Below are positions 1,245 through 53,000 of a stretch of 64,000 bases of DNA, piece after piece (position 1 is the stretch's first letter; every line of letters starts with the position of its first letter). The DNA is from Beroe forskalii (Eukaryota; Ctenophora; Nuda; Beroida; Beroidae), in contig WFMF01000105.1 in NCBI GenBank assembly GCA_011033025.1, positions 62,001 to 126,000 on the forward strand. Direction: 5' to 3'. A program made the position numbers and the translations under genes. The notes below the pieces were generated by a model that was not told the origin of the DNA, did not search any database, and saw only the letters and a program-made list of their open reading frames with translations.

Positions 1245-1460
1245 TTATTGGAATGATATTACATAAATACATATGAAATGACCTTGCATAGTAACGTTGC
1301 ACATACAATAGTTCATATTATGTTGCCTTTCTAACCCTGAGATATGCACGGTCCAAACTACAGCAATTCTGCACTGTAGTTTGTAGATTAAAATACACAA
1401 GACAGGGACACTGGACAGATCATCTATGTTCATTTTTATTTCGCAGAACACCATTTCGGT

Positions 1461-1710
1461 ATCCCTCCAAACCCCACGATTCCCTCCAAACCCCATGATT
1501 CCCTCCAAACCCCATGATTCCCTCCAAACCCCATGTTTCCCACCGAACCCCATGATTCCCTCCAAACCCCATGATTCCCACCAAACCCCATGATTCCCTC
1601 CAAACCCCATGATTCCCTCTAAACCCCCTGATTCCCACCAAACCCCATGATTCCCTCCGAACCCCATGATTCCCTCCAAACCCCATGATTCCCTCCAAAC
1701 CCCATGATTT
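1461..1710. repeat. 19-bp minisatellite
   Basis: About 13 tandem copies of a 19-bp unit (ATGATTCCCTCCAAACCCC, with point variants) end just beside the donor of the last lamin exon seen. The array has no stops in two minus-strand frames, so it makes long spurious reading frames of a Gly/Trp-rich repeat. It is intronic. Confidence 0.9.
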
Positions 1711-1718
1711 CCCCTCAC

Positions 1719-6205: not shown

Positions 6206-8296
6206 ACTAGCCAGTGTCTTCCCATTAGCCTCAGTTAGTTAATTTAATATGTGTACAGTATTAAATTCATCTGACAAACGTATTAAGCGGAAATGGTCAA
6301 CATTTTTAAGTTCTATGTAATGAAATAATTACATATTAGAAGACTAGAGATTGCACAATTTCCTGGGATAAAAGTTAAATACAGGTACTTGTAATCGATT
6401 GTATGGAATATTTACCATACATTTTATTCATCATGTATAATCACGATGTCAATCAGTGCATACCTAACGATAATAGTCAGAGTCCAAGCTTCAAATCGAT
6501 GTGATAACTGATGTATTTCACTACTTTAATATCGGTGCTCACTGCTTATATATCGATTTAGGAATTTAGATGTGTTTCTGTCTGTGTTTGTTTATTCAAA
6601 CACCACTTTGTACCAAATCACTTCTAAGCCAATAACTTAATCAATGACACGGGATAAAAAATGTAGTGGACTGACCAGAGATTGAAATAAACAGATCTTT
6701 TCGTTCAAAAACAGAGTCCATGCCCACGATGATTTGGTAAGCCATAAACGGGCTTTCCAAGGTAATTTACTAATAAGAAATGACGAGAAATGACAACTAT
6801 TATAAGCTTGATATCAGTGAAATGCTACTGGGGAAAATAGGAATGCCAGTTCTAACATTGGACCACTATTCACTAAAAAAGTTTAATGTTAACAAAATGC
6901 ACCATCCCCGACAAAACAAAGAAATGTTTCCGTCAGCATAAGGGCGGAATACCATACAGCAAACCATTGGTAACAACAAAGCAGAAAACATAATAATCAG
7001 CCAAAACATTAAAATTTTACTACAAGGAACTAACACTACTGAGCAACATGCGCAGCTTTACCTTCTTTTCCCAGCTTTAAGCACATTGGGACAATTGGCA
7101 ATTTGCCATTAAACAAGATACAGCAAGAATTGCGGTACAAAAACCTATGGCATTATAAAAGCATTTTCGATCCACTGCTCCAATATTTCTATCATATTAC
7201 AAATAAGTAGCATAACATCAAAAAAAATTTTCAAGTTCGCGGCTGCTGTAATAAGAGATGAATAGTGAAAAGTAAGCATGTAAGCAACCGTACATCACAG
7301 TCGACACAAATTTTCTTTTCAGATTGACCAAACGTAAGAGAATTTTAAAAGCGCTCGATTCTTGAGTCATTATAGAAAACCAAGTGATGCGCGGCTCCAA
7401 AGCACCAACCACGGGACTTAGCATTATCATATCAACAAAATTCATTTATCAACTTCAATCATCTGTAAATAAATGAAAATTTAAAATGCCCAAAACTCAT
7501 TAGAAGTGAACAGTGAACACTGAGCATTTTGCAGTCTATACGATTCAGTGAAAAGTTCTCATTGTCGATCAGGAATTAAACGCCGCGCACATGACAATGG
7601 TATTGAACTTTGTATTTGCAAATGATAAATTCTTAATGAATAATGAATATGGAGTATGCGTCCAAAATCACATGACAAAAGATCTAAACATGGCTGCCTG
7701 CAAAAGAGGAAATATAAAATACGGATATCTATTTTAATACAATATGTGATTCAGTTATTGTATTACGCATTCTATTTTGTCAACCGCAATTCATCGCGAA
7801 AATTTTTCTCGATTTTCAATTCTGATAACTTATGAATCAAATTTTGCATATATAAAAGAATAAATTGACTATATCCAGCAATCTTTTATTTGTGGTAATA
7901 AAAATTAAGATGAAAAGATCAAAGTTTGTACAGAATAGCGCCGCGCACAATGATTCTTTCAAGGACGAACTTATCCTCCGCAAGCATAAAATTTGATAAA
8001 GGAGCAAATTTAGTCGATGCGTGTATCATGGGTCGATAGCCTCTGTAATATATATGCGCGCGCACCATTTCTTTGTGAGATACCAGGCTTTACTGCCCGC
8101 CATATTGAAAGATTTATATTGCGAGCTTTTTAACGTCTGTTTCTCGTTGCATTTTCTGGACGTTTATGATTATTTTTTTCATTTTACCCGACTTTCTTAC
8201 ACTTACTTCCCTGAGTGATGCTAGATGTGAAGTTTTCGGAGGCAGATCGACGATCGGATCTCCGTATTGTCACCTTGAACGACCAGTTGTCTTGTT
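6206..8296. promoter_or_regulatory. Intergenic region between divergent NDUFV1 and EPC genes
   Basis: NDUFV1 is transcribed leftwards and the polycomb gene rightwards from this 2.1-kb stretch, so it should hold both promoters. It is AT-rich, with no coding exon I can support. Individual promoter elements could not be identified with confidence. Confidence 0.5.
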
Positions 8297-32497: not shown

Positions 32498-34060
32498 ATG
32501 GATGCTCAACCTTGTACCAACTGTGAATCTCTAAAAGAGAAATGCAGGCTACTGGAAGACAAAGTTGTTTCACTGACTGAAAAAGTAGACAATCTCATAC
32601 AACTGATGTTCAAGAAACATTGTGACAAATCTACACAAACTGACTGCAGCATAATGACTAGTTCACCATCACAGACTGAACCACACCCTTTAACATGTTC
32701 ATCCCAGATAGACTCTCACCTGTCAGTTTCAAACTTGATAACTTATGAGCATGTCCCCTTATCTCCAACCTCTTCTGATGTGTTATTTGACATTTATTGT
32801 AATGCTGAAAATGCATCAGCAGTCAAAGATCATACTGTAGATGAGAAACCATATGAACTCTATCCTGGCCAACCATTTTTAGACTTTGATTATGCTGCAT
32901 TGGACCATGAGACAACATTCACTAGGTCACATGGAAACAGAGCAACATGCTACTTCGGCCAGTACCAATATGGATATGGTAGTACAACCCACAAGCCATG
33001 TCCCCTCCCTCCACCTACAAGCTATCTTAGGAAAATACTAGCCCATCTTGATCATATCCTCCCTAACTACCAGTACAACAGTGTTCTGTTAACCAAGTAC
33101 ACAAATGCATCAGATAGCTTAGGCTTTCACAGTGATGATGAGCCTGAGATTGTAATTCATTCTCAGATAGTGACAATTTCTATTGGGGGATCTCGCACAG
33201 CTCAATTTAGGAGGAAATATAACCCTGATAGCATGGTACAAATGGAACTGAAACATGGTGAGGTGTATTCAATGACCAAAGCTTCACAGGACATTTTTGA
33301 GCATTCTATTCTTCCATCTGATTATGAACCACCTCGTATCAGTATCACCCTCAGGCTGATATCACCACCCGCACCCCAAACAGCTCCACCCACCAATTCC
33401 TCATCTAGTAGCCCAGCACCAATTGAGCCCCCCAACACCAACACCAATGAGCACACTATCTATATCAGCTCTAGTATGTTCAGAGGCATTAATGAGGACA
33501 AAATGTCATCAGAGCACCAAAAAGCCAAAGTTTTTTTCTACCCAGGTGCTACTGCTAAGACCATACTTAATAATCTGAGGCAAGATGCAAAGTTCCTATC
33601 ATTAAATCCAAGCTCTGTCAGGAAAGTATTCATATTATGTGGTACTAACAATGTTGACCAAATTTTAGGAGTTCATAGGGGTAACCATTTTAACTTTATC
33701 ACAAATCATATTGTTTCAGAAAAACTCCTAGATGAAGCCAAATTTGACATTGAAAGTCTTCTTGAGTACCTCCATCAATGGGCACAGCATGCCTCAATCA
33801 ATGTGATCAATATCTTGCCTCGAGTGAGCTCTTGTAGGAACTTTGTCATTAACCAACTTAACCATACCATTAAGTTACTCACTGACAGAAAGCCATACCT
33901 TGGAATGGTCAAAACTGAATCAGATAGGAACTTGTTTTGCTATAAGGATGGCAATCATAAAGATAACTTTTTCAGCAGCAAAGGGTCTGATAATGTACAC
34001 CTAACACGTGAGGGAGTCATCAGGTTAGCAAGATACCTTAAGTACACTGCTCACCATTGA
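32498..34060 (+). CDS. LINE ORF1: coiled coil + AlkB-like dioxygenase + SGNH hydrolase
   Basis: A 520-aa frame; the ATG at 32498 is the first in frame. Residues 10-40 form a short Leu/Val heptad segment after a CTNC motif, likely for oligomerisation. Residues about 175-290 match the AlkB family: H211-x-D213 (GFHSDDE), the SIGGSR strand, H269 (IFEHS), R280 and R286 (PRISITLRL), which are the Fe(II) and 2-oxoglutarate ligands in the right order and spacing. A Pro/Ser/Asn linker follows. Residues about 322-520 resemble an SGNH hydrolase: ISSSM in place of the usual GDS block, CGTNN at about 381-385, and DNVHLTREG with D498 and H501 near the end. AlkB enzymes remove alkyl groups from bases; SGNH esterase domains are known in CR1-type ORF1 proteins. 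Substrate and activity here are inference. Confidence 0.88.
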   Translation: MDAQPCTNCESLKEKCRLLEDKVVSLTEKVDNLIQLMFKKHCDKSTQTDCSIMTSSPSQTEPHPLTCSSQIDSHLSVSNLITYEHVPLSPTSSDVLFDIYCNAENASAVKDHTVDEKPYELYPGQPFLDFDYAALDHETTFTRSHGNRATCYFGQYQYGYGSTTHKPCPLPPPTSYLRKILAHLDHILPNYQYNSVLLTKYTNASDSLGFHSDDEPEIVIHSQIVTISIGGSRTAQFRRKYNPDSMVQMELKHGEVYSMTKASQDIFEHSILPSDYEPPRISITLRLISPPAPQTAPPTNSSSSSPAPIEPPNTNTNEHTIYISSSMFRGINEDKMSSEHQKAKVFFYPGATAKTILNNLRQDAKFLSLNPSSVRKVFILCGTNNVDQILGVHRGNHFNFITNHIVSEKLLDEAKFDIESLLEYLHQWAQHASINVINILPRVSSCRNFVINQLNHTIKLLTDRKPYLGMVKTESDRNLFCYKDGNHKDNFFSSKGSDNVHLTREGVIRLARYLKYTAHH

Positions 34061-34234: not shown

Positions 34235-37175
34235 ATGACCAACTCTAATTTATTACACAATCTTACTGTGGGTCATTGCAACATCCAGGGAGGCCTTATT
34301 GGAATTTCCAAGTCAACACAGATTTGTCAAATGATTAAGAAATATAACATGGATATTATGTCTTTGAATGAAACTAACCTTAACGAAAGTATCTCATCCA
34401 ATACTTTAAATATACCTGCCAATTTTGAGTTCAAAAGAGCTGATAGAGGTTCAGGTACTAGAGGAGGTTGTGGACTGATAATAAGCAATAAAGTTGCCGT
34501 TGATGAAGTCAAAATCAGTACAAATATTTCAACAATAGAAGCCAAATGGATCAAAATCAAAAGTAGCAACATATATCTTTGTGGGTTTTACCGTTCTGGA
34601 GGGTATTGTAAACTTAATGAATTTCTGGATTATTTTACAGAATGTATGATCAAACTCAAGGGAAAGAAGGTGATTTGGGTAGGAGACATCAATATAGACC
34701 AAAATAAGATAAATTCAGCTGATTATAAGAAACTAGATTCTACTCTTAGGTCTTTTAATATGGTGCAGACAATACAAAATTATACTAGAGTAGCAAAGAA
34801 AGGAAATAAATTTACTTACAGCACCATTGATGTTATTATTACAAACTGCTACTCTGACTTTGAAAATTCCTCAGTACTAAATGAATGCCCTGGTGACCAT
34901 TTTGCACTGAAATTTGAATTAAGCTTCAAGGTGGAACTACCTCCAAAATTTGAAAAAGTAGTTATTAATAATTATTGTAACAACAATATCAAGGCATTTC
35001 AAACCTACTTAGCTAACTCTGATTTTACCTCTATCTATTCAAGCACAAATGTGGAACAAGCAATGTCCTTACTAGATAGTTTCTTGAATGATAATCATAG
35101 TCATTTCTTTCCTCAAAAGATCATTAAAAGGCATGAAAAGTTTATTTATCAACCATCCCAGGACAGTTTGAATGCTATTAAGACTAAGAAGAAGCTCCAC
35201 AGAAAATTCAAATCTAAGCTAAGAAAAGTTAATGAATCCAATTGCAATAATTGTAATGTTTGCAATAAGTGCATCAATGCCCACTTAGCTTGGGACTTGT
35301 ATAGAAAGCAGCGTAATGTTACCAACAAAATAACCAAGGCCAATAAGAGGGAAAACTTACTAAATGATCTAAAGAAAAAAAGTGATAAGAACGACTTGAA
35401 AGGTATATGGAAATCTATTAAGGTAGCTACAAATATGCCATCTAAATGTAATACTCAGCCCAGTGTAGATCCTGAAATTATCAATGCAGAAAATTTGAAT
35501 AATCACTTCAGTGAGATTGGGAATACAATTAACAAAACAATTCCCAACTATGACAATATATCATATAAGGACTTCTTGATGAATAATAACATTCAGTGTT
35601 CACTCTGCTCATTTGAAGAAGTATCAAGTGAGTCCATTAAGGCATATATAATGTCAATACCATCTGATAAGTCAACCAATGATAAGCTACCACTGAAAGT
35701 TATTAAATCTGTGTTACCTATTATCATTCACTGCATCAGCCATATTGTTAACCTTAGTCTTTCAACTGGCCAGTTCCCAAACTCTTGTAAGTTAGCGTCA
35801 GTAACACCAATCTTCAAAGGTGGAGATGCAAATGATCCTAATGATTACAGACCAATATCTATTTTGCCCCTAGTTTCGAAATGCATTGAACATTGTGTTA
35901 ATGAGCAGCTAACGAAATACTTTGATGAAAATAAGCTCTTGACTAACCATCAATATGGTTTTAGAAAGAATTATTCGACAACTTATCTCACACTAGACAT
36001 GTTTGATATGTTATTTGATAATAAGTGTAAAGGCAACATCCCAGCAATAATTTTTCTGGACATAAAGAAAGCATTTGATACTGTGGATCACAGCATCCTA
36101 ATAGATAAGCTCAAATTCTATGGGGTTGATGGTACTGTTATTCTGTGGATCAAAAACTATCTTATGAACTGTAAACAATCAACAAAAATCTCAGGGATCA
36201 AAAGTATATATTTAAGCATAAAGTTTGGTGTACCACAAGGTAGTCTTCTTGGTCCTCTGCTGTTTAGTATATATATCAATGATATTGTCAATGCATGTAA
36301 TCTGTCCACACCTTATTTATTTGCAGATGATGGTGCACTGTTATTTGAAAACATATGTAGGAATAGTTATCTCAACATAAGAATAGAAATGATGACCATC
36401 ATTAAATGGCTATGTGTCAATAAACTTGCTTTAAATGTAGATAAAACCAAGATTATTATCTTTGATAATATCCAATTTGGGGTTAAAATCAATATTTTCG
36501 GTAATTACTCAGTTAAAGAATGCAAATCATATAAATATCTAGGGTTAATTGTTGATAATCTACTTAAATTTGACTTGCATGTAGATTACATCAAGAAAAA
36601 AATACAGAAACGTATTGGAGCTATGTACAGAGGGAGCACTTTGCTACCATTGAAAAATAGGAAAATGTTTGCTAATTCACTCATCTTACCTCATTTTGAC
36701 TATTTAGATACTATTTATGGTAGGGCATCAAAAACTAAACTTCTTGAGCTTGATATCTTATACAAAAGGTTGCTAAGATTGCATTAGGCGTTGAAAAGAC
36801 AGAAAGTAGCATCAATGTTTATAGAGACATGAAGTGGTTGCCCCTTCATCTCAGGCGACAAGTACATTTATCTTGCTACATGTTTAGAATCATAAACAAT
36901 CTCAGTCCTTCCAACTTTATGAATAAGTTCAGGTTCATCTCTGGAGGTAGTAGAGATGGTGCAAACTGTAACCTTTACACACCCAAATCTGCTAATCTAA
37001 AAAATTTTATTATCTAGGAGCAAAAAGCTTGGAATATCCTCCCACTTGACCTCAGGAATAAAAGTGATGTTAAAATCTTTGGGAAGCTGTATAAGGCACA
37101 ATTGTTAGATGCAATAATCACTGATCCAAATTACAGGGTAAACAATGCATTTGATCACTTGTATAAGCCAAGGTG
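34235..37175 (+). CDS. LINE ORF2: endonuclease-reverse transcriptase (frameshifted near its end)
   Basis: Nicks target DNA and copies the element RNA. The ATG at 34235 opens 850 codons. The APE-like endonuclease occupies residues 1-230: GHCNIQGG, SLNETNL (catalytic Glu), VGDINID, YSTIDVIITN and PGDHFALKFE. A linker holds a cysteine cluster (NCNNCNVCNKC) at about 35238-35275. The reverse transcriptase spans about residues 510-750: NDYRPISILPLVSK, IFLDIKKAFDTVDH, GVPQGSLLGPLLFSIYIND and the catalytic FADDG (usual FADDT). The frame stops at 36785-36787, but the neighbouring frame from 36765 reads straight on (KIALGVEKTESSINVY), so one A was probably lost from an A run. The C-terminal motif LGAKAWNILPLDLR is clean only in the second copy of the 265-bp duplication. 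The spacer after ORF1 is 174 bp. Confidence 0.9.
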
Positions 37176-37497
37176 AGTCGCCTCAAATAAGTCTTCCTTG
37201 TAGTTTTGGCATGGCAAATAACAAGGTGTAATGTAACCTTTACACACCCAAATCTGCTAATCTAAAAAACTTTTATTATCTAGGAGCAAAAGCTTGGAAT
37301 ATCCTCCCACTTGACCTCAGGAATAAAAGTGATGTTAAAATCTTTGGGAAGCTGTATAAGGCACAATTGTTAGATGCAATAATCACTGATCCAAATTACA
37401 GGGTAAACAATGCATTTGATCACTTGTATAAGCCAAGGTGAGTCGCCTCAAATAAGTCTTCCTTGTAGTTTTGGCATGGCAAATAACAAGGTGTAAT
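36968..37497 (+). repeat. 265-bp direct tandem duplication in LINE 3' end
   Basis: 36968-37232 and 37233-37497 are near identical, differing by two small indels in A/T runs. The unit covers the last ORF2 codons and the start of the 3'UTR. Confidence 0.95.
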
Positions 37498-38204
37498 GTG
37501 TTATTATAACACAAGATGCTTGATTTTCTGTTGATTTCTCCCAAATAATATTCTTGAAACCATTGGCCATCCCTGGATGCTGTAAATTTCACCTACATAG
37601 ATTGTGCTGACTTTTTAAGATAACAGTACATTATGTTGACAGCAGTGTTTTGTTTTTAAATGTTCATTTTCTAACTGTTATTAATAAACATTTTAAATTT
37701 ATTCAATTTATTTTACTTGGGCAAGTTATGCAGCCTGACCTCGGCAAGTCATAAATCTGCAACCTTATTTTTGTAGATATGTTTTTATTTAACTTTTTCA
37801 TGCATTTTATTTATAATGGTATGTACTAGTTTTAAAGAGTACACTTTTAGTTTATTTTCATTATTTTCAATATGATTAACCATATAACTATTATTAGTCC
37901 TTAGTGGGTGACTCTTTTAACAGTTTTCATAATTGACTTGATGTCTGCCCTCAGCACATGGAATTTGCCTCTTTTTATACGGGAAGAAAGGATATTTTTA
38001 GAATGAGTGCTGTAAAAAATTGATATTATTATTATTATTATACTTCTCTACTTCTCTTCACTGAGTGTGTTTCTTACTTTCTTGGTGCTTGGAGACTGGA
38101 GTAAAGACAATTATCAATTACCAAAGTCACCAAAGAGCAGTTTCATTCAGGCAGGTGGTCACTGCAATTGATGGTGCTATGTCCTATTACCTTGGGTGAC
38201 TGCT

Positions 38205-38640
38205 GGGGGACTTATGTCTCAAATGGGCCTGTGATGTATCAATCAATGGGCATGCATTGTCACAAATTGGCTAGTGCTGTCTCTAATGGGCTTGTTTTAC
38301 CTCAAATGGGCCTGTGATGCCTAAAATGGGCCTGCTTTTGTGATCAAGTTTCTGCTAAAAATGGGCTGATTAATGATGATTATAGTCTCTGCGACAAAAT
38401 GAAAGAAGCTGATTTTTAATAAATAAATCTGATTTTAATAAACTGACATCGGGAATATTTTCGGAAGAGGCACGATAGTATTATATTCAAGTATTTACTA
38501 TTGCCAGATTTAATAATAATAATAATACTCCGTCATCAACCTCAAATTTGATTGTATAAAGTGGGCCTGTGGTGGGAAAAGTGGACCTGGAAGAAAAACC
38601 TTATGTAAGAGGGGTGGTGACTGTTGAGTCTTAGCAGAAT
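38205..38640 (+). repeat. Third GGCCTGTGATGTC repeat copy, split by an insertion
   Basis: The repeat of 21990-22340 recurs (CAAATGGGCCTGTGATG...CTGCTAAAAATGGG), is interrupted at about 38367, and resumes at about 38571 (TGGGCCTGTGGTGGG). The interrupting piece has its own second copy at 50826-50967. Confidence 0.75.
38367..38570. mobile_element. Small mobile element of unknown class
   Basis: Begins CTGATTAATGATGATTATAG and ends GATTGTATAAAG; flanked by TGGG on both sides within the interrupted repeat. Its homologue at 50826-50967 lacks an internal block of about 60 bp that ends in AATAATAATAATA, which looks like a further insertion. No coding capacity and no clear terminal inverted repeat. 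Confidence 0.6.
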
Positions 38641-39509
38641 ATTATTAGTACAATTTACTAAAATACATCAAAAGCTCTCAGCACACAAGGGTACAGTCTC
38701 TGTACAGATGTTGAAGAGGGGAGGGAGATGCCTGCTGGTCAAGGTCAAAAAGTGGATGTAATTTTTGAATAAAAACAAAAATTGAATAAAACAAAAATTG
38801 AAATTTCATGCCATTTAACAAAAACATTGAATAATTCAATATCAGAGCGAATATGGGATGGAATAATTAATTAATTGTTGCCTTAAGGTGGTTAATATGG
38901 TTTTTCTGGGCAAGGTTTATAGACTATTATGTATAATGGTCAACAATTATCCCATAGTGTAATCTTACATGTAGCCAATTATTACAAAGTCTGGGGGGCA
39001 TAGGAATCACACTTGCTGGGGCTATTGTGTGAACCGAAACAGAGAATGTAAGACTAAGTCAAGCCAATAGTTATATGTTAAGCAAGGCAGGAGTTGATTC
39101 TAAGTGGCTACTGTGTAAGATTCACTAGGATGGACAGTTTTGAGGTGTTGGATAGGGTAGATAAAGTAAATTTTAACTAGAGACTTAAGTGAAAATATTT
39201 ATAAGAACTTTATTGAATCATAATTCACACGCATATTTACTTTCAAGCATTTAATTATATATAAACATACGAAATTATACTATATACCTTTCAAACTTAC
39301 ACAACAATACCTTTAGTACCAAAACTATCACCTGGACAAGGACACCACCTGGACCTGAATTTGGGATAATGTGGTCGTCATTAGTATCTAGACGAAGTGG
39401 TTACTAGGGGTAGTTGCATGTGAATTCTGCAATAATTGTATAAGGTTTAGAAATAAGGTTTCGAAATAAGGTTTAAAATCTTATGCTCATTAGCATAAAC
39501 GACTCAGCC
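38641..39509. other. Between the two LINEs, no gene
   Basis: Nothing supported on either strand. Part may be 3'UTR of the minus-strand LINE. Confidence 0.4.
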
Positions 39510-42500
39510 TCAATCAGGGTGCTTTGAGGTTTTTGATGTTGAAGAGTTGAAGTCATGTGATGGGAGCCATTCAACATCATCATGAGCATGCTGGTTTTCA
39601 AAAAGTGCATTCTTAAGCCTGCCTTTAGGATCACTTAGACTTTTAGAGGGGTCAGGACAGAATTTTTGATGAAGTGTATTCCAGAGGATTGCCGATTGGT
39701 ACACAAAGTGTCTGGAGGGACTGGGGGTTATTAAAGCACTTGAGGTGGCCCTTTTAGAAAATTTAAAGAGTGAATGTATTGAAATGGGGCTTTGGAATTT
39801 AATAATTTTAAATATATCCATAAAACTTGTTCCTCCATAGAATCTTTCAAATCAACTCTTAAAACTTATTTATTCAAAATAGCATTTGATATTTAACTTA
39901 TATTACTTAACTTATTGCAATTCATTTTTGTATAAATTATGCTTTGTGTTTTCTGACAGTGCTTTAATCTCAGCATGACTCCAGCTTTTTAGTTAACTTT
40001 AAATTATTTGTATATTAAGTTATTTGAAGCACTGTCATTGCTTTTATTGTTGAATCTGTTCTCGTGGCACAGCTGTGCATTAATTTAAGTTGATGTGCCA
40101 CTATAATATAAAAGTTTAAATTATTATTATTATTATTATGTATATAGGTTTTTGACAGTAAGGATTTTGTACTTTTTGAAGAGAGGTTTAGTATGTTCTT
40201 TCCTATAGAATTCTTCTCCAAGGATTTGATCATGAATTGGTCGGGTACGGCAACAGGTTTTAAATTTATTGACATAAGCATTATAGTCACCAAAGAGGAC
40301 CCTTATGCATTTTTTCTGTATAATAAATAGCTCTGAAATTTTTGCATCTGATATACCGCCCACACAGATATGCAAAGTGCAAGATGGGATTCGAAGAGAG
40401 TATGGTAAAGGCTAGGGTGGAGTCCTCCGGAATACACTTCTTTATTCTAGAAAGAGTGGCAATGGGCGTAATTAAGTTTTCGTTTGCATTCGAGGATGTG
40501 CTTATCCCAGTTTAGATCTTGGTCAATAAACACTCAAGGAATTTTGTTTCAGCAACCTTCTTGATTTCTTGTGAATTGATGAACAATTTAAAATCACGGA
40601 TATTTTCAGAATTGTTTTTGTCTTAGGTTTGAAGTGTATAATAACATTTTGATTGATTAATGTGCAATTTATTCAGGATCATATACTGATGTACTGATTT
40701 AAGTAGTAAGTTTGCTTTAGAATATGCATCTTTGCAGTCTTTTCCAGTTATAAAAATGTTAGTATCATCAGCAAAGAGGACAAATTCACCAAGTTTGGAG
40801 CAATTTGAAAGGTCATTTATGTAGATTAGGAAGAGAAAGTATCCAAGGACAGATCCCTGTGGCACCCCAAATTGAATAGCAAGTTTTGTGGATTGGTGGT
40901 TCAGTACATCAGTATATTGACTCCTGTTAGTTAGGTATGATTTGATAAGTGAATGTGATGCTCCCCGTATTCCATAATGGTACAGCTTATCCAGCAGTGT
41001 TCCATGATCAATGGTGTCGAAAGCTTTACTCAGGTCAATAAATATACCAAGGACATGTTGTTTCTTGTTTATGGCTGATTCAATGTGTGCAATTGAATAG
41101 TTCAGTGCATGACTGGTTGAGTGAGACTTCTAAACCATATTGATTTTGGTGGAGTATGTTTTGGGAAGTGAAGAAATTATAAAGTCGGGAATAGATAAGT
41201 TTTTCAAAGATTTTTTCCAAATATAGGAAGTGTTGAGATTGGCCTATAATTTTCTATTGAGTCAGGGCTTCCTTTTTGTACACTGGTGTGATTTTTGCCA
41301 ACTTTCAGTTCCTCAGAAATGGTTTCAGGGACATGAGGTCGTTAAATATTTTGAGAGTGGCTTTTGCAATTATATGAAGATTTTTAATGACTTTGACAGG
41401 GATATCACTTGCTTTGCCATTTTGAAAGTCCGAAATGATTTCATTAATTTCAAGTTCAGTGCAATCTTCAAGAAATATTGAGTTGATGTTTGCTGGCATT
41501 AAGAATTCAGTAAACGATTGGAAGTGGGACCTGTTAACACTTATTCCATCTAAGTCAGAGTTCAGGTCAGAGGCAATTGAGATAAAATACTTGTTGAAAG
41601 CATTAGAAATAGTTCTTTTGTTAACGAATGGAGGTTTTATTTGTTTTTTATTAGAGCCCCTGAGCTCATTTATTAGTTTCCAAGTTTTCTTGGGATCCTC
41701 CCTGCATTCCTGGAATTGAGAGCATTTGTATGATTGCTTGGCCTGCTTTATAATATGTTTCAATTTTTACGATAAGTACTGAAATTTTCGTGAAGTTTGC
41801 TGTTGCCTTCTGGATTGTTTTTGGTAATGGTGTTAGTCCATTCGGCTCAACTCATACTTTCGGTTTATCGATTCAATTATACCTTCAGATATCCATGGAT
41901 TATTGAGGATAGTTTTTTCGTGGTTTTAGGAACTGTAAGTTTACAACTACTGTCAAGACAGGAGTTATAAGTCTTGAAAATTCACTGAAACTTTGGAGGA
42001 GTTTCACTAAACTTATTAGTAAGTTCATCAATAAAATTAAGGTTTTATTACTGTAGTCAAAAATATTGTGTTTGTTTCTCAGTCTTACATTGGCTTTCAG
42101 AACTGAGGTCTGAGAACTGGAATGCAGGGAGGTGGACCCATTTTATCACCCATTGTCCCTGAGGTAATGATATATTGTAGACAAGCCGTTTGTGAAAATA
42201 TTATCAATGGTGATGGTTTTGTGCCAGGCCGTTCATGAGTGTATGTGGAAATGAGGGTATAACCTGCAGCCATGAAGGTATCTTCATATTTACTTAGCAC
42301 ATTTTTACTGAGTAGGTTTAGGTTGAAGTCACCCATTATGTACACATTATTGCTAGGCAGGTATTTCAAAGATTTTTCCAGTTTAGCACAGAATTTATCT
42401 TTTTACAGCCATCATTGGGGGTGGTATACTACTCCAAATGATGGAAGTACTGTATTAGTTGATTGAAGAAAAGGCACTTATGTCTTCACAACATTCAGAA

Positions 42501-43105
42501 ATATTTTCTAGGATTGCATATTGATCGAATCATGGATAGAGTGCAACACCAGTGCCTGATTTTGTTTTCATTTATATCTTGGTAGTACCCACTGTAATTA
42601 GCAATTGGTAGTGCAACCCACATTTGAGCAGTATTTGTTTCAGCCAAACCAATTGCAGTGAATTTGTGATTTATGCACTTTTTAATTCAGCACTAAGAGA
42701 GTCAAAATTCGTGAAGTTACCATCAACATTAAGAAAATATGTCGACAGTAAGCTTGTCACAGTTTCGTAAACCAGGCTTTAAACCCACCTTCCTGTAAGA
42801 GTTGATTCAGTTCCTGATACTATAGGATTTACATCCATCCAGGACATTGCATATTTTATTTGGCATATTGATCAACATATTCATCATAATGTTTTTCATC
42901 TGAATCCTGCCAGTGGGAAAAAAGGGGGTTATAACGTGGTTCCAAATTTGGTTCACAGCCTGACAAACCCATTTGTTAGCAACAAATGCAAAGTTTGATT
43001 TATTAAAACACTTGCTATGGATAATGATACCACAAGCTTCACACTCAGTAATAGGTTTGCCAAGGTTAATGTTCTTATTGCAGCAGTCACATTTTTCTCT
43101 AGCTA
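39510..43105 (-). pseudogene. Minus-strand LINE ORF2 remains (PHD-like, endonuclease, reverse transcriptase)
   Basis: Near 43100-42955 a Cys/His pattern (CDCCNKNI, ECEACGIIIHSKC, KWVC) looks like a PHD finger whose final Cys is lost. The endonuclease is visible at 42369-42240 (NNVYIMGDFNLNLLS). The reverse transcriptase shows LINELRGSNKK (41670), GIFIDLSKAFDTIDHGTLLD (41060), GVPQGSVLG and EFVLFADDTNIFITG (40870-40745), then a C-terminal domain from 40375. The frame passes across the nested insertion to FKIIKFQSPISIHSLFKFS (39810) and SAILWNTLHQKF. Frameshifts are frequent; no product is expected. Confidence 0.85.
39822..40139 (+). mobile_element. Nested 5'-truncated LINE 3' fragment
   Basis: Opposite in orientation to its host LINE. 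It starts with a short tail ESFKSTLKTYLFKIAF and ends in an ATT microsatellite (40119-40139). The host protein reads through if this piece is left out: VKNLYT before it and MDIFKIIKF after it. This defines the insertion to within a few bases. Confidence 0.8.
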
Positions 43106-43207
43106 AAACGCGATTGAAATCTAATTATCAAAAATCCCTAAGGTGGCCTAGCATGGCCCCTACTCTGTGCCCTGTGGTGTCCCTGACCTGACCGAAAGAT
43201 TGCCTCC

Positions 43208-44648
43208 TTAATCACACACGACAAACATAGCAATTCCCTTACTACCTAAGTGTATGGTGTCTCCTTCTGAGAGGTTTAGAGCTAACAGTCTTTTCTTATC
43301 TAAGAAGCTGTACAGTGGAGGCATTGTTATTTCAAGACGATGTTTTGAACTCACTAGCAAATACCATAGTATTGAATTTACAAATGTATTCATTCATCTT
43401 GGGAATTCTACTAGGTAGCACAGGCATAACAACAATATTTGCAGAGGGATTAAGAGTTTTCATGTCCTCAACCTTGACTTTCAGTAAACCAACTAGTCGC
43501 TCAATATACCCATCAGGGTTTGTCTGGTCAACAGAGTCAGTGCGAAGGTCATTAGTCCCACAGGCTATAACAACATTAGCATACTCACAGCAGTCAGCAG
43601 GGGTTGATGTTCTTGATCTTTGCAGCTTTAACTCTCCGCTTACCAGGGTAGCTTTCCCTACTTTGCCTTTACCATTCCCAAATACAATAGGCTTAGTATT
43701 GGAGTCTCCCACTAGAATAACACTCCTGGAACATTTTGAGTTGATTGTCCGTAGGGTGACTGAGAAGCGTTCACCACACGTTTCGACATCCATAATTCTG
43801 TGGTCAAACCAAGCCTGACTAGCTCTTGACATTGAATAGAGGGGAATTGTGTGATGTCACGTGGGTCTCAGTTTCTTCTGAGTGCTTTCCAGAGAAAATA
43901 ATAGCTCTTGAGTCTCCAATGCTGTACGTGAATATGGAGGATCCAGGTTGTAGCTCCAATTCATCATCTGAGTGTTTGGGAGGGGAACTGGGAGGATCCC
44001 TGGCACTAGTCTTTGCGGGGTAGTGATTTACAAGGATACTGTTGGGTGTCAGGGCATCAGGTAATTCGTAGTCTGTTTTGATTTTCTGGATAATTTTTTG
44101 AAAGCAGGGTGGAATAGAAGGGGGTACAGAGAGCGCTACAGAGAGGAGCAAACTTTGTTCTGTTCAGGGAAGGTTTTTGCAATTTGTATGACTGCATGCT
44201 CTGTCAGGTATAGATGTCTAGGGGAAAGATAGAAGTTTTGTTCCATCCAATGGAATGTCTTGTCTCCTGTGGTCTGGGAGTGATGAGCTACTGCTGATTT
44301 GTTGGAGAATTTGTCAGATGGCCTGTCTTGTTGTCAGTAGTCTAGTCTCATTCATGTTCTGTAATGTGTTTGTGGATGGGTCTGAAGGTCTGTCTATTGT
44401 AAGAGGCAGAACAATTGTCACAGGTGATTTAACTGATTTATGTTGGGGGTGAGGTGTGGGGGAGGGGCGGTCTTTTTTGTTGAGAAGTTACGTAGGTTGG
44501 AGCAGCTGGAATGTTTGGTTTCACTGTGGTATGAAGAAAGCATGGTGAGGGGGGGGTGTAAGGGAGAGTAGTTGAGATTGAAGAGGCTGTTCTGCTGATC
44601 TGTCTGTTGAACTGTTGGGCTGCCATTCTGTTGGGATTCTGTTATCAT
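43208..44648 (-). pseudogene. Minus-strand LINE ORF1 remains: AlkB-like + SGNH hydrolase
   Basis: Three overlapping frames make up one broken protein. 44648-44418 is a polar, proline-rich N-terminus. 44151-43819 carries the first AlkB half: SILVNHY, HSDDELEL (His codon at 43972-43974) and SIFTYSIGDSR. A frame change near 43830 leads into MSRASQAWFDHRI, which aligns with the plus-strand LINE's SMTKASQDIFEHSI and supplies the second His, and then RFSVTLR with both arginines six residues apart as in the other LINE. The SGNH domain follows after only about ten residues, with an intact block I (VILVGDSN), ACGTNDLR and, after another frame change at about 43330, GDTIHLGSKG. The order of domains is the same as in the other LINE. 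Confidence 0.82.
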
Positions 44649-44934: not shown

Positions 44935-47900
44935 ATGATCCCAGACAGCAACATTCCTGCTCTTGAAAAACGTTTGCGTTTTTAATTCTTTTAAAGTCTA
45001 AAATTTTAAAGTTGAAAGTCTTATCACTTTTTCTGCATTTTTGGGGCTCCTGTACCTTCCTGACTGATTTATTAATTGCGTTCGCTGAACACACCATGCA
45101 GTTAATATCCATAATTATAAGTCAGATGATTTACAAGCAAATTCTCCATATTGAAGTACTTTTTAAACCATATACTAACTGTACTTACCTACTTTTACAG
45201 GTCCACAATACAGTGCTTCTTACTTAAAATATTTGTTGCAAGACTTGACATTTACAAGCTATCTTAATGTGTTCTTGAATCTTCCAGTGAGTGCATAGGT
45301 AGTGACAATAGGAAAGCAGCTAGATTATTTTAGAACTATCATTGGATAGGTATAAACAAAAGTTTCCTTTTGAAATGTTGAATAGTTGAATTGGTACAAG
45401 GTTTGATTTATATACTCATGAGTTTTCAGTTTTGACCTGAAACCTAATAATAAGACCTCATATGGAAACATAATTTTCAGATATTTCCGAGAAGAATAAG
45501 CTATGTATCAACCAAAAAGTCATTTAGTATTGAACCCATCTTGACGAGAAAGTATTTGGTGAGTCATGCATGTAGACTGTAGGTACCTATGTGCTGGATA
45601 TTTTGTAATATTTAGGTTATGTTGAATGATACTATTATTGCAAATTTGAGTTGATAAGTACTTGATTCTTGAATAACAAATATTTTCAGCATATCCATCA
45701 TTCAAAGCTATGTTGCTGGTTAGCAGGAACAAGGTTGCCAATGTTCATAAGATCAGATCTCTATTATCACTACCTTCTATGTAAAACATTATGCCAGGAT
45801 AATGCGATTTTAAAATCTTTTATGACACTTGAATCTAGATGTAAGTACCTATTTGAATCTTAAATCTATGAAAAACTTTTATCACATCATCTGATGGTTT
45901 CAAGTAGTTGGTTTCATGAGTTCATAGTATTTGTTGATGCCATTAGTATTTAAGTCCTCAATTCATATCGTCCCTGTTTAACTTTCAGATCCAGAAGTAC
46001 CACCAATAAGAGATATATCTGGGTTTTACAACTTCCATCATTACGTGATAACCTGTGGACAGGGCCATCAAGTTGTTACCTGCTGGCTCGATATTGAGAA
46101 GATACACTCAGCAAAAGGAAGAGAAAAAGCTGATAAACTTGAGAAATTCTTTGATTCATATTTGGTTAGATTTAAGTTTATTGTTAAAGTTCATATTCAT
46201 ATTCACCCCAGGTGTGCCCCAGGTGTGCCCAGGTTGTGCCCCAGGTGTGCATCGGCAGATTACCGAGTTACCTATTCACTTATATCAGCTATGCTAAGCC
46301 CAGTGATTCCAACTAATTGAGTGAATGTTCATAAAAAGCCTGGTATAATTGATAATTGTAACTCACAGATTTTTAGATTTTATAATTGTTGTATTTCAGT
46401 GAAACTAAGTTTAATCTGATAATACTGTACAGTGTACCTTAAAGAACATGTTCCCCTTATAGGTACATAACCGCATTTTTCAGTTTTTAGATTCACCTCA
46501 AATTATTCAACAACTGTATCGTGATATTGCTTATGATGAAGTCAGTGCTGTTTGCTGTGGAGTGAGATTTGTTCAAGGATACTTGAGGGGTGATGCTGTA
46601 TATCTGCAGGTTATTTATGATCATAGGTACCTACAAGCGTGAAAAAATTTCTGTTCATCCTGACTTCTTTGCAACTATCATGGTGGCTAAATTCGGAATA
46701 TTATAATCTTAATCAAATTATTATCATCCAAATAGATATCATATTTTGCATTCCTTGGGCTTTCTGTGCTCTGGAAAATGATACTTCCATACCTGTATTA
46801 AATTTTTAGTGTTGGTCCTATAAAATATAGAGTGCTACTTTAACACTTCATTACATTATTATCATCACCAATCTTTGTAATTTGTATTTTATTCAACTTT
46901 CAGCAAATTAAAGACAAACTTCTTCGTGAGAAGCGACTGTTCAGAAAGCTACAAGATAAAATCACACAGGATCTGAAAGTTTATTGGCTCCCTCGATACT
47001 ATGCTCATCTTTCCAGAAGTAATATTTTCTTAAATATTATCATAATTTATTCGATAAGATCTGTTGACAAAACAAAGTAAGAAATTTTGTTTATGTATTC
47101 TTCATTTTGTTGGGTTTCCCAATTTACAACAGTACAAAACCATAAACCAACCAGGAGTGAACCCAAAAGACGTCATTGCACCGACACAAAGTGCATCTAG
47201 TTTTCACAGCCTTATCAGCGAAGTTACTCCTTCCTCTGGCTTTGAGACCGAGTGTAAGTTGAAATTTCAATTTCAACCTCCATTTTTAAATAACACTGCA
47301 AAGAATTACTCCATCTCATATAAAATTCCTTCTGTGGAGCAGTATAATTCATTATAATAGTTACCGACCGTGGGGAGGTTACAATTAATTTTAATGCGCC
47401 AACAAACGTAAGTGTCTTCGAACGAGCCAGGGTTGTTTGCCTAATTTACTTGACTATTTGACTTGATTATGTACCTAGTTGATAACCGTACCTTTTGCCT
47501 CATGATTTTGCAGACAGAAATATGCCAGACCACTTTCCCTGCTGTCAGCTTCCCCCACTCACTCTCCTCACACCACTCCCCTCACACCTCTCCCCTCACA
47601 CCACTCCCCTCACACCACTCCCCTCACACCACTCCCCTCACACCTCTCCCCTCACACCACTCCCCTCACACCACTCCCCTCACACCACTCCTCTTACACC
47701 ACTCCCCTCACAACACTCCCCTCACACCACTCCCCTCACACCACTCGCCTCACACCACTCCCCTAACACCACTCCCCTCACACCACTCCCCTCACACCAC
47801 TCCTCTTACACCACTCCCCTCACACGAGTCACCACTCTCCTCACACCACTCCCCTTACACCACTCCCCTCACACCACTCCCCTCACACCACTCCCCTCAC

Positions 47901-49761
47901 ACCACTCCCCTCACACCACTCTCCTTATACCACTCCCCTCACACCACTCCCCCTACACCACTCCCCTTACACCACTCCCCTCACACCACTCCCCTCACAC
48001 CACTCCCCTTACACCACTCCCCTCACACCACTCCCCTCACACCACTCCCCTCACACCACTCCCCCACACCACTCCCCTCACACCACTCCCCTCACACCAC
48101 TCCCCTCACACCACTCCCCTCACACCACTCCCCTTACACCACTCCCCTCACACCACTCCCCTCTCACCACTCCCTTCACACCACTACCCTTAAACCACTC
48201 CCCTCACACCACTCCTCTCACACCATTCTCCTCACACCACTCCTCTCACACCACTCCCCTCACACCACTCCCCTCACACCACTCCCCTCACACAACTCCC
48301 CTCACACCACTCCCCTTACACCACTCCCCTCACACCACTCCCCTCTCACCACTCCCTTCACACCACTACCCTTAAACCACTCCCCTCACACCACTCCCCT
48401 TACACCACTCCCCTCACACCACTCCCCTTACACCACTCCTCACACCACTCTACTTACACCACTCCCCTCACACCACTCTACTTACATCACTCCCCTCACA
48501 CCACTCCCCTCACACCACTCCCCTTACCCACTCCTCACACCACTACCCCTTAAACCACTCCCCTCCTCACACCACTCCTCTCACCCACTCCCCTCACCCT
48601 CCCCACACCATTCTCCTCACACCACTCCCCTCACACCACTCCCCTCACTCCCCTCACACCACTCCCCTCACACCACTCCACTCACACCACTCCTCTCACA
48701 CCCCTCCACCACTCCCTCACACCACTCCCCTCACACCACCCCTCACACCCCCCCACACCACTCCCCTCACACCACTCCCCTCACACCACTCCCCCTACAC
48801 CACTCCCCTCACACCACTCCCCTCACACCACTCCCCTCACACCACTCCCTCACACCACTCCCTCACACCACTCCCCCACCACTCCCTTACACCACTCCCA
48901 CCCCCCCCCACACCACTCCCCTCACACCACTCCCCTCACACCACTCCCCTCACACCACTCCCCTCACACCACTCCCCCACACCACTCCCCTCACACCCAC
49001 TCCCCTCACACCACTCCCTCACACCACTCCCCTCACCAACCCCTCCCCACACCACCCCTCACACCACTCCCCTCTCACCACTCCCTTCACACCACTACCC
49101 TTAAACCACTCCCCTCACACCACTCCCCTTACACCACTCCCCTCACACCACTCCCCTTACACCACTCTCCTTACACCACTCCCCTCACACCACTCCCCTC
49201 ACACCATTCTCCTCACACCACTCCCCTCACACCACTCCCCTCACACCACTCCCCTCACACCACTCCCCTTACACCACTCCTCACACCACTCCCCTCACAC
49301 CTCTCTTGCTCCCTTAGTGCTGTCTGACACTGAATGTTTACCTCCGTTGATGAAGAGTAAGCTGTGTTCTACTGACGGTCTGCGCCGAACATCTCAAGTT
49401 GTCTTCTCTCATGACATGGGCATGGACATTTCCATGGGTAGGGTGCATGTGCAGTTTTATTTCGTTATATTACCTCACGTCATGAAAGTGATCTTTCAGC
49501 GCAATTTATTGCTTTGCCATTGTATTTAATCTACGAACTACAGTTCAGAAGTGCTGTATTCCGATCAGTCCTTATCTTTTTGTAACAAAAGGCAAGCAAA
49601 ATTCGAACCAAATTTTTTAATTCAGTTTTTATTGCTATTTTGCTTCAGACGAAATCGAAGTGTCGAATGACACAGAAAGTCGGATCGAGAGGAATTTGAA
49701 GAACTTCGTCGAAAGAATTCACAGTGAACGAGTTGAAAGTAGAAAGCGTGCTTCTTCTGTA
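44935..49761 (+). CDS. RGS22-like protein (regulator of G-protein signalling family)
   Basis: Proposed exons: 44935-44971 (weak first exon, ATG at 44935), 45201-45286, 45481-45558, 45690-45840, 45989-46164, 46484-46609, 46904-47018, 47133-47253, 49318-49437 and 49649-49761. All have GT-AG borders and compatible phases except the 46904-47018/47133 junction, which is off by one and unresolved. Evidence for RGS22: an N-terminal segment with FTSYLNVFLNLP, then CWLAGTRLPMFIRSDLYYHY, recalling the W...RLP.F..SD.Y motif I associate with RGS22. An RGS-like helical segment follows (TCWLDIEKIH...LEKFFDSYL), then VYWLPRYYAH. RGS domains speed GTP hydrolysis on G-alpha; RGS22 itself is a testis/cilium-linked family member. 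The product (about 370 aa so far) is much shorter than vertebrate RGS22. It ends in phase 0 without a stop, so more exons follow, perhaps those at 61.3 kb. Confidence 0.6.
47560..49310. repeat. 14-bp satellite (CACACCACTCCCCT)n
   Basis: About 125 copies of the 14-bp unit with few variants (TTACACC, CTCTCACC), interrupted by length changes. It sits in the intron between the RGS22-like exons at 47133-47253 and 49318-49437 and reaches to within a few bases of the downstream acceptor. The strand is almost G-free. Confidence 0.96.
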
Positions 49762-50003: not shown

Positions 50004-53000
50004 GCCCAAAATGTACGGTTTCTTGAGTAGCAACCTAACTTATTAGTAAAGGGCTTATGCAAAATTCCCGGCCAAGAATTTTTGAGGCCTAATTCAAGAA
50101 GTGAATCCTTATATTGATTTTTTAGATTGGAAGTTGGTGATTGTAGTACATAAGTACCTAGAACTACCTAATACCTACTTCCTACCGACGTAGTTATTTA
50201 CTTGACTGTTTAAAAGGGCATTAGGTAGGTTAATAACATTATCTTGACATAACTAAAAACTGCCTCTTATTGCGTATAGAACGGTTAACATTATTCCGAC
50301 GTATTTTTTGATTTTTCTGGTCTAAGCTGACGCAGATTGCAATTTTTGATAGTTTCGATTTGAGTTTGTTGGTAGGTAGGTACCCATATCGTGATCATTT
50401 TATACAAATTTACACAAGCTATGCACACCCATGTACTCATGTATCGACATTTGCTTTGTACACACTGTGTACTACACAGTGTAGGTACATGCTGCGCTTA
50501 TGATATACAGATCAACGTCATCAATTCAATACCTAATGCTCCACGATGACGTGACAAACCTGGTCTACTATATAATATGTTTATTATGATAAGCACTATC
50601 ATTCCGTTTCAATTCAATTACCTTTCCACATTACGGATGATGGGTCTTGCATACTTGATTCTTGCATTCTGTTGTCTGCAGTGTAACAATATCGTGGGCC
50701 GTGCATTTGTGTTTTTGATCCCTCGTCTCAACTCTTACTTCGAAATTGTTTTTACACTATGCAATTACCATATTTGTTTTTTAACTGAATGATCGGATCA
50801 CTGTTTATTAGTCGCATACTGATACTGATTAATGATGATTATAGTCTCTGCGACAAAATGAAAGAAGCTGATTTTTAATAAATAAATCTGATTTTAATAA
50901 ACTGACATCGGGAATATTTTCGGAATTCTACTCCGTCATCGACCTCAAATTTGATTGTATAAAGTAGTGTTGTAAAGTTTATGTATATTGAACAGTTTGA
51001 TATTTTCATCACTCAAATTTGATCGCAATATAATGCAATTGATCAAATGAAAACTGTGCCAACCGATTGTTGTTTCTTTGAAGAAGAGGTGTGCCGAATT
51101 ACAACCCGATACTGCATATCCCATACTCGAGAGACTGTGAGATATACTGAAGGGAAAAGGAAGTAGTTCTGCGTCATTAGATCAGTAATGAGCTAATGAT
51201 CGTAAGGACCTTCCAAAGCACAAGGAAATATTTCCTGTGTGCTGGCGGTATATATGCAACTTATGTCCATGGAGGAGTGGGGAGAAGCTACGTGCCTTGC
51301 CTGGCTTAATACGGTGGATGTCCTTGCTGTACGGCTTGTTAAACAAGGAACTGAAACCGTAGGGCTCCGTACAGGCTTCGCTCTGCACCTTCTGGTGTTG
51401 CGATATACACGCCTCTTGTTGTAATATGTTACATGTTAGGTATTGCCAATAAGGTCCCATAACATTTAAATTATTGAATGAAAGCCAATGAGACCGGCGC
51501 TGGCAGTCTCGACTTTCTTGATATTCCAGTATGGGTCACGCGTACTTAAACAAAAATTCAATTCCATGTCAGTAACTCAATATCTAAGCACTTTAGGGCT
51601 TATGTTTATTAACTAAGTAACTATTCGCATGTCAACATGGCCATTGTGAACATTTTAACTTGAAAACCAAGTCTGTACCACCTTCCTGTGCCGAGATAGA
51701 TTTTGTGCATTTTAGTACATTTCTACATAATAATATGTACAAATGTATTGTAGTAGTTGTTACAAGTACAATCCTCCACCTAAGGTATAATGGCTTCGGA
51801 CTGCATAGGTCACTTGCATTTGCTGGTCAAAAGACTGCTCGCATCATTAGCAAATGGAATTTAGCATGATTACTTAATTAGATGGTTGCAGGACTTGGTT
51901 GCAGGACTTGCTTATCAAGATGCAGGCTTTCTATATGGGCATATTGAATAAAGCATGCGCATGTTGTGCAGCCTTTGTACAGTTGAAGCAGTCTTTTTAC
52001 TAATGGCTATATTCTTACATGTAAAGCCAGCACAGGCCTTTCGTTAAATGGAGTAGTAGTCACGTGACTATGCTAACTCCACTCCCATGTATAATGTAGG
52101 GGGAATATCACATGCAAGCCTTTTCTTACTATACTGTATTCGCAGGCATTAATTGTCGTATGCAAGCTTTCTGTGTAACGTTGACCTCCTCCTGCGACCT
52201 CAAACAATAGATGCAGTATTTTCCTTATGGAGAAGCCTGTACCTACTTGGTTAATAACGCCATATCCCGCCTATTGGTTCCGAGTGTACACAGTACCCAC
52301 AGATGCGCTGCTATTATACCTAGCAGCGCATCATAAACGTTGTTCCAAAGATGCAAGATGCCCGTTGCACTTTCATAACTGAATTTGCGGAGAAGTTCTT
52401 GCTCATTCTTTTTTTCAGGATCAGCATCGCATTGCAATGGTACTTCCTTACTTTAAATACTTTCATTACGAATTGTTAAATTCGTTCGAATTGCAGTGTT
52501 TTACGTTGCATACGAGGTGCTGCTTGTAACTTTCTAAGATTGGATTGTTCCTATCACAGAAATTGAAGAGTTGATTATCGGTGGTCGTCCCTGACTGTTA
52601 TTATTGCTTTATTACATTATCCCAACCACGTTGTTACACGCTTGCTATATCCATGCAGTATACATTTTCTTGCTAATATTAGAATATTCCTGTGTATAGT
52701 GTATATACACTGTACTGTATGTAATCTTAATCCTTCATTGTATTACATCAGGAGGCGTGTATAACATCAAGAGGCGGTGTAATAGTGTAACGCGATACTG
52801 TGCTATATTTTCTAAATTACATTCACTGAATTATTCGAGTACAAATGCGTGATACTTGCTAACGCTGTGCCCGCAATTCTAAGCCTTGTAGCCTACAATA
52901 CGAGTGTCGCTGCTGATCTTTGCCATTTGCTACGATTCTTCATGTTTCAGTATCTATTTTCACAATATTTTAGTATTTTCTATACCTATAGTTACACTGT

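Follow-up and report, generated by a model that had tools for sequence, protein, structure and literature searches.

An AlkB-type dioxygenase domain joined to an SGNH hydrolase domain in ORF1 of LINEs, and in a Helitron, of the ctenophore Beroe forskalii

INTRODUCTION

A 64,000-nucleotide stretch of the Beroe forskalii genome (assembly GCA_011033025.1, contig WFMF01000105.1, positions 62,001 to 126,000, forward strand; here termed the window) harbors a long interspersed nuclear element (LINE) whose first open reading frame (ORF), located directly upstream of the endonuclease (EN)-reverse transcriptase (RT) frame, was described in a sequence-only reading as a fusion of a complete AlkB-like dioxygenase and an SGNH hydrolase. 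The locus raises the question of whether this combination is a genuine and maintained constituent of a group of mobile elements and, if so, which function an AlkB domain may perform there. The analysis reported below addresses both parts of this question.

RESULTS AND DISCUSSION

Domain composition of the window ORF1

The frame runs, as had been described, through 520 residues to its stop codon without interruption (Table 1), and, as the probability of 520 open codons at its base composition is approximately 2e-14, a chance open frame was rejected. Its N-terminus carries CTNC at residues 6 to 9, and further ORF1s in this genome begin in a comparable manner. Residues 147 to 286 correspond to the Pfam AlkB model PF13532 (2OG-FeII_Oxy_2; E value of 5.4e-20, 72.9 bits, cut-off of 31.2), and the best matches among PDB sequences are human ALKBH3 (E value of 6e-14), ALKBH2 (2e-8), and Escherichia coli AlkB (4e-4). 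The AlkB part has an AlkB-type fold, for which the nearest solved structures, by both fold and sequence, are ALKBH2 and ALKBH3, with FTO and ALKBH5 ranking behind them (ALKBH5 appears in the Foldseek list and is absent from the 50 shown entries of another comparison). A complete AlkB domain is supported; the absence of a profile or fold match, named beforehand as a refuting outcome, did not occur. Both the HxD...H iron triad and the R...R pair which binds 2-oxoglutarate (2OG) are present, and H211, D213, H269, R280, and R286, together with CGTNN (residues 381 to 385), D498, and H501 of the SGNH part, were all found where they had been placed. The two AlkB models of NCBIfam score ORF1 far under their cut-offs (17.4 against 231 bits and 16.4 against 267 bits), as is expected of equivalog models, while the full-length structural model is weak except for the AlkB domain and the coiled coil (mean predicted local distance difference test [pLDDT] score of 62.7).

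Assignment of the C-terminal domain to the SGNH hydrolases fared in a more mixed manner, as the catalytic S, G, N, and D/H residues occur in the proper order, yet Lipase_GDSL_2 matches residues 348 to 506 with 14.7 bits (E value of 0.046), under the Pfam cut-off of 32.9. A comparison of this region with PDB sequences produced no meaningful match. The assignment is made because of the motifs S326, G350, N384, and D498-H501 and because of the relatives, one of which (L132) exceeds the cut-off with 33.9 bits, with L113, L115, L137, and L145 remaining under it (the prefixes L and C denote loci and contigs, respectively). Across 20 ORF1s, S, G, and N are aligned in every case and D and H in 14; the remainder have gaps at both positions (L095, L106, L107, and L111), a gap at D (L090), or other letters (L089).

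ORF2, which begins after a spacing of 174 bp, contains Exo_endo_phos (E value of 9e-7) and RVT_1 (E value of 1e-30) domains, in agreement with the reported position of ORF1 ahead of a LINE EN-RT frame. Because the ORF2 frame is broken near its 3′ end, the window copy is not fully intact. Target-site duplications around the element were sought, and none was convincing, the longest shared word being 11 bp. ORF1 corresponds to the Type IV (esterase) description, namely, an SGNH esterase with a coiled coil or a zinc finger/leucine zipper, and it is on the basis of its architecture only that membership of the CR1/L2 clade is proposed. A search of a viral collection yielded nothing related to the complete ORF1, to ORF2, or to the RTs, and for the AlkB part it yielded two AlkBs on viral contigs (L001 and L002).

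Table 1. Features of the AlkB-encoding elements (window positions unless a contig is named)
Feature	Position	Strand	Basis or remarks
ORF1	32498..34060	+	520 codons: zinc-finger-like/coiled coil, linker, AlkB, linker, SGNH hydrolase
N-terminal CxxC...C zinc-finger-like/leucine-zipper segment	32513..32629	+	By reading; predicted helix at residues 7-44
AlkB 2OG-Fe(II) dioxygenase domain, residues 130-290	32885..33367	+	Fe ligands H211, D213, H269; 2OG arginines R280, R286
SGNH hydrolase domain, residues 317-520	33446..34057	+	S326, G350, N384, D498, H501; weak Pfam match; relatives; alpha/beta model, partly of low confidence
ORF2, APE-type EN and RT	34235..36787	+	850 codons to first stop; Pfam
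Rest of ORF2 C-terminus, other frame, in-frame stop	36788..37175	+	Decay of the copy; by reading
265-bp tandem duplication in 3′ part of element	36967..37499	+	99% alike
Second element, RT fragment	40623..41129	-	RVT_1 E 2e-21; 60% alike to the L113 RT (class B)
Second element, C1/PHD-like zinc finger	42807..43124	-	C1_1 E 1.3e-6; as at start of class B ORF2 (compare L113)
Second element, AlkB C-terminal part and SGNH	43332..43856	-	H, R, R kept; GDSN, CGTND; Lipase_GDSL_2 weak, E 0.008
Second element, AlkB N-terminal part	43819..44163	-	HSDDE kept; PF13532 E 2.4e-7, 31.6 bits, cut-off 31.2
Class D Helitron	C847:365676-375220		L132/L153, L151, L150

AlkB-SGNH ORF1s occur in at least three classes of LINE

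A search of the genome assembly (216 Mb, 1134 contigs) yielded 88 matches to ORF1, 13 of which, the window copy included, span at least 430 of the 520 residues without an in-frame stop. With the Pfam AlkB model, at least 150 genome matches were obtained, all over its cut-off and 10 with an in-frame stop; this is a lower bound, as 150 of 189 candidates were scored, and some of the matches are partial. An animal typically possesses about nine ALKBH genes. Among 30 ORF1 loci (window copy included), whose flanks were examined over at most 1.5 kb, AlkB was found in 26, EN in 26, and both in 22. These 22 loci, together with L113, L114, L128, L136, L137, L143, and L146 and with L126 and L145, constitute 31 AlkB places, the window element being one, which adjoin EN and/or RT among that part of the 150 contexts which was read. 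Elsewhere, the adjoining partner is an RT at a second element of the window and a Helitron replicase at one AlkB place.

Three classes of LINE are distinguished by their layout, the RTs of which are 31 to 46% alike. In class A, represented by the window element, a zinc-finger-like/coiled coil region precedes AlkB and SGNH, followed by EN-RT. Class B encodes a PHD-like finger (a weak Pfam match in L137 only, elsewhere assigned by reading), AlkB, and SGNH in ORF1 and a zinc finger, EN, and RT in ORF2; its members are L113 and L114 (EN and RT), L136, L137, L143, and L146 (EN match), and the second element of the window, while L116 represents a class B ORF1 with no EN within the stretch examined. 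Class C (L115, L126, and L145) has a distinct N-terminus ahead of AlkB and SGNH, and is followed in L145 by an ORF2 which is open over 1223 codons and encodes a zinc finger, EN, and RT (L148; Pfam), in L126 by a decayed ORF2 with RT (L147, by reading), and in L115 by only the start of an ORF2 (by reading). These results show the window frame to be the first ORF of a LINE from a group in which ORF1 combines an AlkB-fold dioxygenase with an SGNH hydrolase.

The second element, a decayed class B LINE, occupies window positions 39500 to 44200 on the reverse strand, a few kilobases from the first; tblastn within the window located its AlkB at 44103-43689 (-), with pieces of RT following downstream at 41703-40647. 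Its frame is broken, yet the H, D, H, R, and R of AlkB are all retained. Between the AlkB domains of the two window copies, the first, second, and third codon positions agree at 41, 54, and 31%, respectively (141 codons), which is the pattern of protein-level constraint. The SGNH parts of these copies are not significantly alike, with 44 of 500 shuffles reaching an equally high score.

A Helitron carries the same pair of domains

A fourth class, class D, is represented by a Helitron on contig C847, in which a 2026-codon frame opens with SGNH (33.9 bits, exceeding the cut-off) and continues through AlkB, a repeat rich in proline, and a stretch rich in lysine to the replicase domain of a Helitron (Helitron_like_N [Rep]; E value of 3e-24). 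A frame for a PIF1 helicase lies behind it (E value of 2.6e-25). A second long copy, on C225 (L123 and L152), is 60% alike over SGNH-AlkB and 67% alike in AlkB, its replicase part not being seen within the stretch read, and four more matches of 52 to 78% are located on C208, C281, and C297 (two). The domain order is SGNH-AlkB in the Helitron versus AlkB-SGNH in the LINEs. SGNH profiles were compared across classes: the class B profile finds classes C, A, and D (nine best matches listed, E values of 2e-7 to 4e-4; best shuffle, 38), the class D profile finds one class B row (1e-4), the class C profile finds B and neither A nor D, and the class A profile finds B weakly (best, 0.02) and neither C nor D. 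Helitrons copy through single-stranded DNA, not RNA, and have no RNA-templated copying step; given the same pair in such an element, single-stranded DNA is no less likely than RNA to be the target, and the strongest hint for DNA as an AlkB substrate comes from the Helitron.

The transposon AlkB domains constitute a conserved lineage

Tree inference was based on 38 distinct AlkB domains of the genome, of which 34 lie in frames assigned to the transposon classes from their architecture or their resemblance to ORF1 and four are stand-alone ALKBH2/3-like frames (L117 to L120), combined with 22 of 82 rows from bacteria and viral contigs over 146 columns; rows spanning fewer than 110 profile positions, including L133 and other partial pieces, were dropped, and the tree is unrooted, with a root for drawing only. 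All 34 transposon rows are positioned on one side of a branch with a support of 99/92, the two Helitron rows on a long branch (2.16), while the four stand-alone frames and the bacterial rows occupy the other side and do not group with any transposon row. Owing to this branch, the transposon AlkB is considered a lineage apart from cellular ALKBH2/3, despite its resemblance to them.

H211, D213, E215, H269, R280, and R286 are kept in 34 of 34 transposon rows. The same rows uniformly carry T226 and S282, where the 26 others have S and N, and both states are shared by the two Helitron rows and by the second element of the window. Further states are T199 (30 rows) or S199 (2 rows), S222 (32 rows), and I218 (32 rows); the Helitron rows, which are without T199, S222, and I218, keep N199 and L218, and the second element of the window also keeps N199. 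When 81 bacterial/viral rows are considered, S226 and N199 show no variation, and S282 occurs in two rows.

The ratio of nonsynonymous to synonymous divergence (dN/dS) of AlkB was evaluated for 21 class A pairs with an AlkB dS of 0.02 to 1.3. In the nine pairs with a dS of >0.4 and at least 120 codons, it amounts to 0.10 to 0.18, and to 0.09 to 0.14 for SGNH, which is constrained like AlkB. The window copy yields 0.13 against L086 (126 codons) and 0.12 against L084 (163 codons), while L098-L101 and L092-L097 yield 0.13 and 0.12, respectively. Class B pairs have values of 0.05 to 0.08 at a dS of 1.9 to 2.5, near saturation, with 0.15 for L137-L143; in class C and D pairs, AlkB dS is saturated. 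The AlkB domain is shown by these data to be a transposon-specific lineage which keeps all Fe(II) and 2OG-arginine ligands and is under purifying selection.

As a separate observation, L118 and L133 of the stand-alone ALKBH2/3-like frames (L117, L118, L119, L120, and L133) appear to be close duplicates on contig C592, and L119 starts with QTTLDSFF, which we take to be a PCNA-box-like motif.

Proposed function of the AlkB-SGNH ORF1

Enzymes of the ALKBH2/ALKBH3 type act on 1-methyladenosine (m1A) and 3-methylcytidine (m3C) in DNA and RNA. The sequence-only reading had suggested that the element may reverse base methylation on its own RNA or cDNA, thereby countering host marks of the N6-methyladenosine (m6A)/m1A type or alkylation damage. 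That interpretation is supported in part: a LINE ORF1 with AlkB and SGNH, present in many copies and under purifying selection, is upheld, and m6A is rendered the less likely substrate by the proximity of the domain to ALKBH2/ALKBH3 rather than to ALKBH5/FTO. A model to which we assign an even chance, its substrate type deduced from fold and motif, is one in which the ORF1 protein (ORF1p) would oligomerize through its coiled coil on the element RNA, as in other LINEs, and in which AlkB, with Fe(II), O2, and 2OG, would oxidatively strip methyl groups from the base-pairing face (the m1A/m3C class) of the template RNA and/or single-stranded cDNA, where such lesions or marks would otherwise block reverse transcription or second-strand synthesis. 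SGNH may serve in membrane targeting or ribonucleoprotein assembly, as has been proposed for esterase-type ORF1ps in the parts consulted of that work (PMC3905857). These LINEs may, in other words, clean or protect their own nucleic acid.

Carriage of the pair by a Helitron would point to single-stranded DNA as the common substrate, this being the sole copying intermediate common to LINEs and Helitrons. A broader proposal, tentative and on balance improbable, is that AlkB-SGNH represents an accessory module which derives from one ancient capture, is carried and has been exchanged by LINEs and Helitrons, and keeps single-stranded DNA free of base methylation of host or damage origin, as a nucleic acid-demethylating arm of the transposable elements of animals.

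Several observations weigh against the model of base-methyl removal. N282 is replaced by S in 34 of 34 transposon rows, and N199 by T in 30 and S in 2, both positions being N in all 26 nontransposon rows. They align with asparagines of ALKBH3 and presumably represent N120 and N206 of E. coli AlkB, which line the 2OG pocket, such that catalysis could be impaired or modified; changed kinetics, a different substrate, or a loss of turnover would all have to be considered. In addition, position 214, next to E215 on the substrate side, has N in place of D in 19 of 34 transposon rows, and dN/dS scatters from 0 to 0.73 in short overlaps (34 to 47 codons) and young pairs. The sharing of AlkB with Helitrons could, moreover, reflect an mRNA target instead.

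One alternative is that AlkB erases host silencing or decay marks, namely, m6A in RNA or N6-methyladenine (6mA) in DNA, as has been proposed for the AlkB of an orchid Ty3/Gypsy element, which, according to the consulted parts of its description, demethylates m6A single-stranded RNA in vitro and is inactivated by an H448A mutation (PMC9289625). The pocket changes of the transposon lineage could accompany such a change of substrate. We nevertheless judge this alternative unlikely, as the domain is nearest to ALKBH2/3 in sequence and fold, with FTO and ALKBH5 behind, and as E215, whose counterpart we take to be E136 of E. coli AlkB, is kept throughout the 34 rows. That E. coli residue is mutated in the m6A-DNA PDB entry 4nig (D135I/E136H). 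Furthermore, the orchid enzyme is ALKBH5-like according to its authors (PMC9289625, parts consulted).

Equally improbable, in our estimation, is a domain of little or no turnover which acts as the nucleic acid-binding part of ORF1p in place of RRM and CCHC domains. N282S and, in the LINE rows, N199T/S would agree with this, as would the finding that Pfam detected no RRM or CCHC domain in seven AlkB frames scanned in whole or in part (the window ORF1, L113, L115, L137, L132, L092, and L145); a retrotransposon SGNH esterase is likewise a slow enzyme in the consulted portion of its characterization (PMC3905857). The Fe ligands and both 2OG arginines are, however, invariant in 34 of 34 rows across a dS near or beyond saturation, and a domain retained for binding only would be expected to lose some of them.

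It is also conceivable, and very improbable, that AlkB and SGNH jointly remove a base or backbone modification which bears an alkyl and an acyl group. This would explain the pair in two unrelated transposon types, in either order, and is in keeping with a class B SGNH profile which finds classes A, C, and D. We know, however, of no such alkyl-plus-acyl modification in animals, and the class A and C profiles do not find the Helitron SGNH. In addition, SGNH occurs without AlkB in other LINEs, according to the consulted parts of an ORF1 survey (PMC4120745). Finally, the chance insertion of a host ALKBH gene into a single LINE copy, which had been raised as the outcome that could overturn the original description, has no observation in its favor and virtually no probability left, being refuted by the 88 ORF1 and at least 150 AlkB matches in the genome, by the collinearity with EN/RT, and by the separation of the transposon rows from the four stand-alone ALKBH frames.

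Other features of the window

Outside the two elements, positions 47454-49529 (+) hold a minisatellite-like sequence, open over 691 codons, with a repeated Pro/Thr/His/Ser-rich unit in a region of extreme GC skew. Positions 4802-6238 (-) and 1245-3063 (-) hold the complex I 51-kDa subunit, in one long uninterrupted frame, beside intermediate-filament-like frames; the intermediate-filament match is weak, and one such frame has a repeat read as WGLEGIMGFGG. A sequence of 101 bp is identical at 38366-38466 and 50825-50925, 12 kb apart, and Rfam and tRNA scans of the window returned nothing.

Comparison with known systems

Among the matches listed from Creative Commons (CC)-licensed PMC papers, none was seen to describe AlkB in LINEs or Helitrons, and Repbase or domain databases may already contain such entries. 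AlkB in a retrotransposon is known from the orchid Gypsy element; the AlkB-SGNH ORF1 is considered a new ORF1 type of LINEs, the sharing between LINEs and a Helitron being its most surprising part. If the domain is active, no LINE or Helitron with a base-demethylating enzyme of its own would, to our knowledge, have been described before, and the elements would offer a case, open to direct testing, of mobile DNA in animals which repairs its own nucleic acid or removes marks from it, independently of the plant Gypsy element. With this finding, the ORF1 types of LINEs gain a second enzyme-like domain, and a module common to RNA- and DNA-copying transposons is identified. It also serves as a warning that annotated "AlkB gene family expansions" of animal genomes may represent transposons.

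With cellular ALKBH2/ALKBH3 and bacterial AlkB, the transposon domain shares its fold, the HxD...H and R...R ligands, and the HSDDE motif, but it is set apart by the states T226 and S282 (34 of 34) and, in most rows, T199 (30) and S222 (32). Plant RNA viruses present AlkB in a selfish RNA-copying element, within the viral replicase polyprotein, and are likened to the LINE AlkB by description, not by sequence.

Among retroelements, the closest counterpart is the esterase-type (Type IV) ORF1 of CR1/L2 elements, such as ZfL2-1 of Danio rerio, in which a coiled coil (sometimes a zinc finger/leucine zipper) and SGNH precede EN-RT (PMC3905857 and PMC4120745, each as far as consulted), whereas here a second enzyme-like domain is located between the coiled coil and SGNH. 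In the parts consulted, Schneider et al. single out SGNH-bearing ORF1ps as the only ORF1ps endowed with an enzymatic function (PMC3905857), and a 2014 survey of Jockey-superfamily ORF1s recognizes RRM, CCHC, PHD, Tnp22, and esterase types without the word AlkB (PMC4120745); "alkb" and "dioxygenase" have 0 occurrences in the main texts of both papers. Papers on Ridgeia and Solea (PMC7915175 and PMC9921365), in their consulted parts, mention only host ALKBH genes. Bdelloid long terminal repeat (LTR) retrotransposons and Penelope-like elements offer a parallel in that enzymatic accessory ORFs (GDSL esterase) are common to unrelated retroelements, unlike the present case in that "alkb" appears 0 times in the main text of the source, which was consulted in part (PMC5408684). 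The orchid (Phalaenopsis) Ty3/Gypsy element is likewise a retrotransposon with an AlkB domain, an in vitro m6A demethylase; as presented in the consulted parts of that report (PMC9289625), it is a plant LTR element with an ALKBH5-like domain in a separate ORF2, whereas the domain described here belongs to at least three classes of animal LINEs and a Helitron, is fused to SGNH, and is nearest to ALKBH2/3.
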